From the NCBI GenBank assembly GCA_013348725.1, contig CP054689.1:918501-982500 (forward strand): a stretch of DNA of 64,000 bases, in the 5' to 3' direction. The translations under genes and the position numbers were made by a program. Position 1 is the first letter of the stretch. Each line of letters starts with the position of its first letter. The stretch comes from Ectothiorhodospiraceae bacterium 2226. Its GTDB lineage: Bacteria > Pseudomonadota > Gammaproteobacteria > GCA-013348725. Shown here one piece after another: positions 15,624-54,044 of the stretch. The notes beneath the pieces were generated by a model. It saw only the letters and a list, made by a program, of their open reading frames with translations, did no database searches and was not told where the DNA came from.

Positions 15624-16169
15624 GTGACCAAAAAGGATGAACAAGGGCCCGAGGGCCACGACGAGCGCCTCGCCCACGGCTACAACCGCATGCTGGAGCG
15701 GGTGCGCGGGCTGCTCGCGCGGCCCGGCGAGCCTTCGCGCCTGCAGCACGCGATCGAGATCGCCAAGGAGCGGGCACAGGAAGTCGGCGAACTCACCCGC
15801 GAGGAGGCCGAGCGCATCGCGGCCTACATGCACCGCGACCTGCTGGACGCGGGCAACTACTTGTCGAGCACCGGCAAGGCCATCGACGACTGGCTCAGCT
15901 TCGAGTGGGCCTATGCGGAGGACTGGATCAAGGAGATGTTCTCCAAGGTGGTGGACCAGTCGCGGGTGGAACTGGAGCAATTCACGCGCACCCCGCGCAA
16001 GCTCGGCGAGCGCTACTCCGGCGAGGTGACCGCGCCGGGCGTGTTCGTTTGCGACCGCTGCGGACACGAACTCACGCTGACCCGCACCGGCCATATCCCG
16101 CCCTGCGCGCATTGTCACGGCACGGTGTTCTGGCGCCGCTACGGCGCGGAGACGCCCGACGAGAGTTGA
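15624..16169 (+). CDS. Zinc-ribbon protein of the DUF1451/YbeL type
   Basis: The 181-residue protein starts at GTG 15624 behind GGAGGAGGA, a near-perfect ribosome-binding site. The N-terminal two thirds are charged helices, and the C-terminus carries a rubredoxin-like zinc ribbon with CDRCG and CAHCH pairs. This architecture matches E. coli YbeL (DUF1451), whose function is unknown. It converges on lnt. Its last 13 codons, FWRRYGAETP onward, are duplicated 227 bp downstream, where the copy also ends in a stop codon. Confidence 0.85.
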   Translation: MTKKDEQGPEGHDERLAHGYNRMLERVRGLLARPGEPSRLQHAIEIAKERAQEVGELTREEAERIAAYMHRDLLDAGNYLSSTGKAIDDWLSFEWAYAEDWIKEMFSKVVDQSRVELEQFTRTPRKLGERYSGEVTAPGVFVCDRCGHELTLTRTGHIPPCAHCHGTVFWRRYGAETPDES

Positions 16170-16216
16170 CGCCGCCTAGGCGGCTTCGGTCACACACATC
16201 CGGCGGGGGCATACAG
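16127..16216. repeat. Direct repeat copy 1: duplicated zinc-ribbon/lnt 3' junction
   Basis: The first 69 bp (16127-16195) match 16354-16422 with two mismatches. This copy contains the functional end of the zinc-ribbon gene and a degenerate remnant of the lnt 3' end (ending near the CATACAG at 16210-16216), which aligns with lnt codons near 16450 after a short deletion. Confidence 0.85.
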
Positions 16217-16353
16217 CATTGCGCCGCTGGCGCGGGATACCGCGCGGGCCTCCAAGTCCCTTCGAGACAATGCGCCGGCAAAGAGTGATGCAGCGGTGAC
16301 GTTTCCAACGCCCCGGCGCAATGCGCTGCGCTTATTGCGCCCTACTCGGCATT
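16217..16353. repeat. Palindromic REP/MITE-like insertion between the direct repeats
   Basis: This roughly 137-bp non-coding segment has inverted ends: GCATTGCGCC at 16216-16225 and GGCGCAATGC at 16315-16324. The right part forms a perfect 8-bp stem, GGCGCAAT (16315-16322) with ATTGCGCC (16334-16341), around an 11-base loop. The left part has GCGCC-GCT-GGCGC (16221-16233). The look is that of dispersed palindromic repeats of the REP type, or of a small non-autonomous element. No transposase is encoded. Confidence 0.6.
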
Positions 16354-16454
16354 GTTCTGGCGCCGCTACGGCGCGGAGACGCCCCACGGGAGTTGACGCC
16401 GCCTAGGCGGCTTCGGTCACACCCGCCCGCGCCAGCCGGCGGCGGGCATACAAG
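16354..16454. repeat. Direct repeat copy 2: zinc-ribbon remnant plus functional lnt 3' end
   Basis: This copy repeats the last codons and stop of the zinc-ribbon gene as a non-coding remnant and contains the working 3' end of lnt (stop at 16403). The offset from copy 1 is 227 bp. The original junction was evidently the two genes ending almost tail to tail. Confidence 0.85.
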
Positions 16455-17977
16455 GTCGCGGCCAGCACGCTCAACAACAGGGCGATGATCACGGGGTAGT
16501 TGCCGGTGCGGGCATACGGCGTCGCCCCGCGGCGCGGCTGCACCTCCCCCGTCAGCACCACTTGCTCGAACTGCGGCCCGCGCGCGACCAAGTGACCCTG
16601 CGCGTCGATCACCGCGGAGATGCCGTTGGTGGTGGCGCGCACCAGCGGGCGCTCGGTCTCGCGCGCGCGCAGGCGGGTGATCTGCAGGTGCTGGTGGGGG
16701 GCGATGGAGTCGCCGAACCAGGCGTTGTTGGTCACGTTCACCAGCAGGTTGGCCTGCGGCACGCTGCGCGCGATGTACTCCCCGAAGGTGTCCTCGTAGC
16801 ACACCGAGACCCCGATGCGGCACCCCGCACCCGACACGGGGGCCTGATTTGCTTCGCCGCGCGAGAAGCTGGACATGTGCAGGTCGAAGAAGCCGAACAG
16901 CCCGCGCAGCTGCTGCTCCAACGGCACGAACTCACCGAACGGCACCAGATGGTGTTTGTGGTAGAACTGGCGCTCGTCGGGGCCCAGGGTGAGCACGCTG
17001 TTGTAGTAGGCGCCGGTGGCGCGGTCACGGTACGGCAGGCCGAGCATGAGGTCGGTACCGCTCGCGCGCAACTCGCGCTCGAGCTCGGCGAAGTAGCCGT
17101 CGGCCAGCCAGTGGTAGAAGCCGGGAATGGCGTTCTCCGGCCAAACGACCAGGTCCGCCGTGCCGAGGTGGGGGCGCGTGAGGTCCCAGTACAAGGCCTT
17201 GGTGCGCTCGAACTGATCGTCGTCCCAGCGAATCTCCTGCGGGATGTTGCCTTGCACCACCACCACCCGCAGCGGCTCGCCGTCGGGCTCGGTCCAGGTA
17301 ATCTGTGCCAGCGCCGCGCCGGCGACCCAAAGCAGCACGGCGGCCGCGGCCGCACCCGCCGCCCGCACGCGGTAGCGCGCCGCCAGCCACGCATACACCA
17401 GCAGCCCCGCGGTAAGGGCCAACAGCCAGGACAGGCCGTATACGCCGGTGAGCGCCGCCACACCGCCCAGCGGCCCGTCGATCTGGCTGTAGCCCAGGTG
17501 CAGCCAAGTGAAGCCGGTAAAGAACCAGCCGCGCACCCACTCCCACAAGGTCCAGGTGGCTGGGAACAACAGGAGCAGCGTGACCGCCGCGGCGCGCAGC
17601 CCCCCCTGCCCCGCCACCTGCGCCCGCAAGCGCGCGTTCACGTAGCCGAGCGTGGCGGGGAACAGCGCCAGGAACGCCACGAAGGCGCCGGTCAGGAACA
17701 GCGATCCGCCCAGCCCGGTCTCGCCGAACACGTGGATGGCGACGAACACCCAGGAGACGCCCACGCCGAACATGCCGAGGCCGAACAGGTAGCCGCGCCA
17801 CGCCGCGCGGCGCGGCGTGAGCGGGGGCAACCAGAGGGCGAACAGCACGAGCGGCGCGAGCACCGCCAGCGGCCAGAGGTGGAAGGGGGCGAAGGCCAGC
17901 GGCAACGCGGCCCCGGCGAGCAGCGCCGCCAGATCGCCCGCGCGCGGATAGCGGACCAGCCCCTCGATCAGACGCAC
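16403..17977 (-). CDS. lnt: Apolipoprotein N-acyltransferase
   Basis: The 524-residue protein has about six hydrophobic membrane segments at the N-terminus, then a nitrilase-like periplasmic domain with Glu in WPENAIPG, Lys in the YHKHHLVPFGE region and Cys in SVCYEDTFGE, and a final membrane helix. Lnt adds the third acyl chain to the N-terminal cysteine of lipoproteins, so it acts on LptE-like substrates from this window. It is the last gene of miaB-ybeZ-ybeY-corC-lnt. Its 3' end lies inside a direct repeat. Confidence 0.96.
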   Translation of the reverse strand: MRLIEGLVRYPRAGDLAALLAGAALPLAFAPFHLWPLAVLAPLVLFALWLPPLTPRRAAWRGYLFGLGMFGVGVSWVFVAIHVFGETGLGGSLFLTGAFVAFLALFPATLGYVNARLRAQVAGQGGLRAAAVTLLLLFPATWTLWEWVRGWFFTGFTWLHLGYSQIDGPLGGVAALTGVYGLSWLLALTAGLLVYAWLAARYRVRAAGAAAAAVLLWVAGAALAQITWTEPDGEPLRVVVVQGNIPQEIRWDDDQFERTKALYWDLTRPHLGTADLVVWPENAIPGFYHWLADGYFAELERELRASGTDLMLGLPYRDRATGAYYNSVLTLGPDERQFYHKHHLVPFGEFVPLEQQLRGLFGFFDLHMSSFSRGEANQAPVSGAGCRIGVSVCYEDTFGEYIARSVPQANLLVNVTNNAWFGDSIAPHQHLQITRLRARETERPLVRATTNGISAVIDAQGHLVARGPQFEQVVLTGEVQPRRGATPYARTGNYPVIIALLLSVLAATLYARRRLARAGVTEAA

Positions 17978-53996: not shown

Positions 53997-54044
53997 GACG
54001 GCGGGACGGCGGGACGGCGGGACGGCGGGACGGCGGGACGGCGA
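53997..54044. repeat. Octamer tandem repeat, six units of GACGGCGG
   Basis: Six consecutive 8-bp units run from 53997 to 54044; only the last differs (final base A). It lies between the stop of the DUF2231 gene and the start of the barrel gene, 146-193 bp upstream of the latter. As 8 is not a multiple of 3 and the array is outside genes, copy changes would alter spacing only. Confidence 0.9.

Follow-up and report, generated by a model that had tools for sequence, protein, structure and literature searches.

The 64,000-nt stretch of the Ectothiorhodospiraceae bacterium 2226 genome analyzed in this study (referred to as the window) contains a zinc-ribbon gene and lnt in convergent orientation, and the DNA at which their 3'-ends meet is present twice. 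This raises the question of how a duplication could arise that takes in both gene ends and encloses an insertion with a palindrome. That the repeat has this layout had been proposed in an initial annotation and was confirmed by our repeat search and by the integrity of both open reading frames. The features of the locus are compiled in Table 1.

Table 1. Features at the duplicated zinc-ribbon/lnt junction (window positions)
Feature	Position	Strand	Remarks
Zinc-ribbon gene (DUF1451 / PRK11032-like, ybeL-like)	15624..16169	+	181 aa; stop codon within copy 1
Copy 1	16126..16195	.	Working zinc-ribbon 3'-end and lnt 3'-end remnant; weaker homology to about 16216 across a gap
Damaged REPIN (predicted)	16217..16345	.	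One complete REP and two truncated halves
Truncated REP inner half (CATTGCGCCG)	16217..16226	+	Identical to the REP consensus over this half
Truncated REP inner half, other variant (CAATGCGCCGGC)	16268..16279	+	12-mer; 4 occurrences in 464 kb, 2 of them in known REPs
Complete GTAG-REP (GTAGGGCGCAATAAGCGCAGCGCATTGCGCC)	16315..16345	-	Exact 31-bp consensus; GTAG end faces copy 2
Copy 2	16353..16422	.	Zinc-ribbon remnant and working lnt 3'-end
lnt, apolipoprotein N-acyltransferase	16403..17977	-	524 aa; stop codon within copy 2

The repeat search reported the junction repeat as 77 nt with 94% identity at a spacing of 227 (16126-16202 versus 16353-16429). Its core of 70 positions is 97% identical, with two mismatches at 16158/16385 and 16162/16389, and is followed by three mismatches at 16196-16199. 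The initial annotation had described two 69-bp copies with two mismatches and an offset of 227 bp. Mismatches and offset were reproduced in the core, but the length was not, since homology extends to both sides with small indels. If small gaps are allowed, the alignment of copy 2 continues leftwards to a point 1 nt short of the REP end. On the right, copy 1 contains after a gap approximately 17 nt matching lnt, namely the codons for LYARRR (CCGGCGG-GGGCATACA); in a shuffle test of this flank over 40 nt, 2 of 1000 shuffles reached the same level. Including these extensions, the duplicated piece comprises about 90-100 bp. Local duplications are few in the 464 kb that were scanned (the window and 400 kb sampled evenly across the genome; at least 34/40 identity at 60-500 nt spacing), and the zinc-ribbon/lnt pair is the only one inside the window. 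At 53997-54043 of the window, the 8-mer GACGGCGG is repeated in tandem without a mismatch (5.9 copies), which is a possible slippage site.

Both genes are intact and convergent, and in each copy the remnant of the partner gene is cut off. The distribution of working ends and remnants over the two copies corresponds to that given in the initial annotation, with the stop codons placed accordingly. The zinc-ribbon protein scored 138.7 bits with PF07295 and 63.7 bits with NF008261, the latter score being below the model's cut-off of 183. Lnt scored 323 bits with TIGR00546 and contains the LNT_N and CN_hydrolase domains. Downstream of copy 2, lnt runs on unbroken and without a REP. A search for terminators and RNA families at the junction returned none at a relevant place.

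The segment between the copies had been regarded as a palindrome of roughly 137 bp. This was rejected, as the fold is no better than that of shuffled sequences (z -0.17), and the palindrome is the 31-bp REP at 16315-16345. This REP fits the GTAG-REP pattern of a 5' GTAG/GTGG head followed by a GC-rich imperfect palindrome (16345-16315) and is dispersed and multi-copy: 33 copies were found genome-wide at up to 3 mismatches, and the reversed control gave 0. Of 93 other genomes in the class, 8 carry the family at low copy number. Elsewhere in the genome, REPs of this family form inverted dimers of 89-93 or 160-161 bp, whose spacers are near-constant in length and differ in sequence. In the window, the whole REP and the truncated halves are spaced about 10 bp off both of these size classes. 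The 10-mer CATTGCGCCG occurs 5 times in 464 kb, which is weak evidence alone and short enough for chance, and CAATGCGCCGGC at 16268 is likely the remnant of the left REP of a REPIN. Judged by its sequence, the insert is probably a broken REP dimer (REPIN) of the dispersed GTAG-REP family. No convincing counterpart of its spacer was found in the rest of the genome, including other REPINs.

A comparison of the junction in related genomes, which had been suggested as a check, gave the expected result. In five genera, all of them distant, the convergent zinc-ribbon/lnt junction is single, with 0-67 nt between the stop codons. One convergent junction is the ancestral state as far as these distant relatives indicate, the exact empty site not having been seen among them. 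The nearest relatives in the 36-genome and 94-genome samples and in a GTDB scan share no more than about 54% identity in Lnt, and the junction DNA itself had no match in 35 relatives.

Duplications at REPs are not confined to this junction. At the 3'-end of ugd (2855.9-2856.3 kb; UDP-glucose dehydrogenase family), the last 64 nt of the gene and the following DNA recur past a REP and are followed by a second REP; the duplication comprises 82 nt with 96% identity, and each unit ends with a REP. The 5'-end of a gspF-like gene (838.7-839.1 kb) recurs between two REPINs upstream of the gene, and two arrays of 160-bp units with a REP variant (GCCATAAG...CATCGCGCC) are located at 2839.5-2841 kb. At least two REP units with the same flank at each, the mark of a tandem REPIN cluster, were found at ugd, at gspF and in the 160-bp arrays, whereas the zinc-ribbon/lnt junction contains only a single complete REP. 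A second GTAG-REP family (GTAGGTTGGGCTGACGAAGGAAGCCCAAC) with 20 copies accompanies intact and broken rayt genes near 2.94 Mb. There, about 320 nt of rayt recur, starting beside the end of a second-family REP. Over 2939.9-2946 kb this rayt array consists of tandemly repeated rayt pieces with second-family REPs at the joints. A 125-bp unit (AGGGATGTGGCGCCATGATTGGCGGCGTGCAGCCGCC...) is present nearly three times at 1948.9-1949.3 kb, where no REP of the window family was found.

The position of the duplicated DNA relative to the REPs was analyzed by taking the 45 nt just outside the GTAG of 55 REPs of both families and searching for them on the REP-body side within 520 nt. A strong match was obtained for 10 of the 55 REP ends and for 2 in the outward control. 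These 10 remained from 12 high scores after 2 matches of masked bases had been discarded, and they are not fully independent, because several of the REPs share arrays. The distance between GTAG and the start of the repeat is 0-5 nt for nine of these matches and 11 nt for the other; for the REP in the window it is 1 nt. Hence, duplicated DNA usually abuts the GTAG end of a REP, and this holds for two REP families. The joining of a REP end to a copy of nearby DNA would lead to such a position, whereas a 227-bp tandem duplication with subsequent decay would not.

The zinc-ribbon/lnt repeat is probably a local, REP-anchored duplication of the convergent junction. Starting from a single junction in which the zinc-ribbon gene faced lnt, a GTAG-REP dimer would have become established there. 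About 90-100 bp across both gene ends would then have been copied, with the GTAG end of the REP as the starting point of the new copy. This would leave a damaged REPIN between two junctions, with one intact end for each gene. The anatomy of the locus and its link to REP ends are direct observations; as their cause we infer RAYT strand transfer or fork stalling. Either a RAYT may have joined the cut 5'-end of the REP to a 3'-end of nearby DNA in a one-ended strand transfer, or a replication fork may have halted at the hairpin of the REP and resumed some 100-300 nt behind it. Since lnt is unbroken after copy 2, both routes would also need a REP-free template or the later loss of a second REPIN. 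A REP-free partner could be present during a new insertion, and REPIN excision was seen in population sequencing of P. fluorescens (PMC3116915). It counts against a REP-anchored duplication that a further REP closes the second copy at the other clear loci, whereas that in the window runs into lnt without one.

Members of the REP-associated tyrosine transposase (RAYT) family occur in this genome. A pseudogene of this family at 2156050-2156490 scored 188 bits with NF047646 and contains two in-frame stops; its C-terminal open frame alone scored 129.9 bits at a cut-off of 80. A REPIN of the window family lies directly 3' of it, the REP pair being present on the downstream side only. For TnpAREP, cleavage of REP substrates has been described at CT and, for one system, at CA as well, with GTAG thought to guide the choice of the site (PMC8266576). 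By inspection, no CT dinucleotide lies beside GTAG at the joint of the window REP. As CT is the usual RAYT cleavage site, action of a RAYT is unproven here.

Among the other explanations, an insertion of the REPIN that itself produced a long target duplication of about 70-100 bp, by repair of a widely staggered break or by a template switch, is unlikely but retains some weight. Formally the locus shows the layout of junction, REPIN and junction, relatives have single junctions, and both genes are intact. The initial annotation had considered an insertion with an unusually long target duplication, which fits poorly because most isolated REPINs in this genome lack a flanking direct repeat of at least 18 nt; direct repeats of constant length at independent insertions, the hallmark of target site duplication, were not found. 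Moreover, larger target duplications are not known from enzymes of the IS200/IS605 type (PMC2817692), and the REP is present in both units of other duplications. It is quite improbable that an old tandem duplication of a 227-bp unit covered both gene ends, that its redundant halves decayed and that a REP landed between them later. The constant offset of 227 and the faint homology past both sides of the 70-bp core would agree with this history. However, the core has kept its 97% identity though half of each copy is unconstrained, the adjoining DNA is unrelated where decay would be gradual, and the edge of copy 2 coincides with the REP end. The abrupt stop of so high an identity at the REP likewise does not suit the plain tandem duplication proposed initially.

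Very improbable, too, is an origin by unequal recombination, whether its partners were two REPs or one REP and a similar stretch inside the zinc-ribbon gene. The stretch at 16100-16114 of the gene does match the REP at 16323-16337 in 12 of 15 bases (GCCCTGCGCGCATTG resembles GCGCTGCGCTTATTG), but their distance deviates by 4 nt from the offset of 227. In addition, the stretch in the gene codes for a motif that relatives conserve and is therefore not a REP, and no obvious similarity of this kind was found at ugd and gspF. The chance of an assembly error is close to negligible, because the whole genome is in a single contig, the repeat is short, and several loci have the same architecture and differ in sequence and age.

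More generally, a local REP-anchored duplication may reflect a property of REP ends. It is conceivable, albeit doubtful, that they act as points of one-ended strand transfer or of re-replication, at which the DNA beside GTAG is repeatedly copied together with the REP. If so, REPs would continually duplicate neighbouring gene ends, and the junction in the window would be a trapped product in which both genes stayed intact. A putative side effect is a hairpin-bearing spacer insulating the convergent zinc-ribbon and lnt genes. There is as yet no settled account of how REPs spread or of why the DNA beside them is reiterated in their clusters. The finding of several unrelated gene ends duplicated with a GTAG boundary, in two REP families, provides a concrete test between RAYT strand transfer and fork stalling at a hairpin. 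Anchoring at GTAG can be tested in many genomes, for which the window offers a clear but modest example of REPs reshaping gene ends.

Like REPINs and ordered REPIN clusters (PMC3116915), the elements of this genome are inverted REP dimers in fixed size classes (89-93 and 160-161 bp). In REPIN clusters, the tandemly repeated unit includes sequence flanking the REPIN (Bertels and Rainey 2011, PMC3116915), whereas the locus in the window has a single, putatively damaged REPIN enclosed by the two junction copies, and copy 2 is not followed by another. The GTAG terminus and the imperfect palindrome are shared with GTAG-tagged REP families, whose clusters reiterate singletons or dimers plus flanking DNA of variable length (Di Nocera 2013, PMC3733652). 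In the available text of PMC3116915, PMC3733652 and PMC8266576, no statement was found on a duplicated flank that starts at the GTAG end. As in RAYT or TnpAREP systems (Nunvar 2010, PMC2817692; PMC8266576), RAYT genes are present in the genome, one of them a pseudogene followed by a REP of the window family; here, however, two in-frame stops interrupt this RAYT, REPs are confined to its 3' side, and the joint in the window is without a cleavage signature. The tandem BIME-1-like units of E. coli BIME-2 arrays (PMC2817692) resemble the 160-bp arrays at 2839.5-2841 kb, whereas no such array is present in the window. Reiteration of flanking DNA in REP clusters has thus already been described, and this locus presents a variant in which the junction of two genes, both of them intact, is duplicated around one REP.
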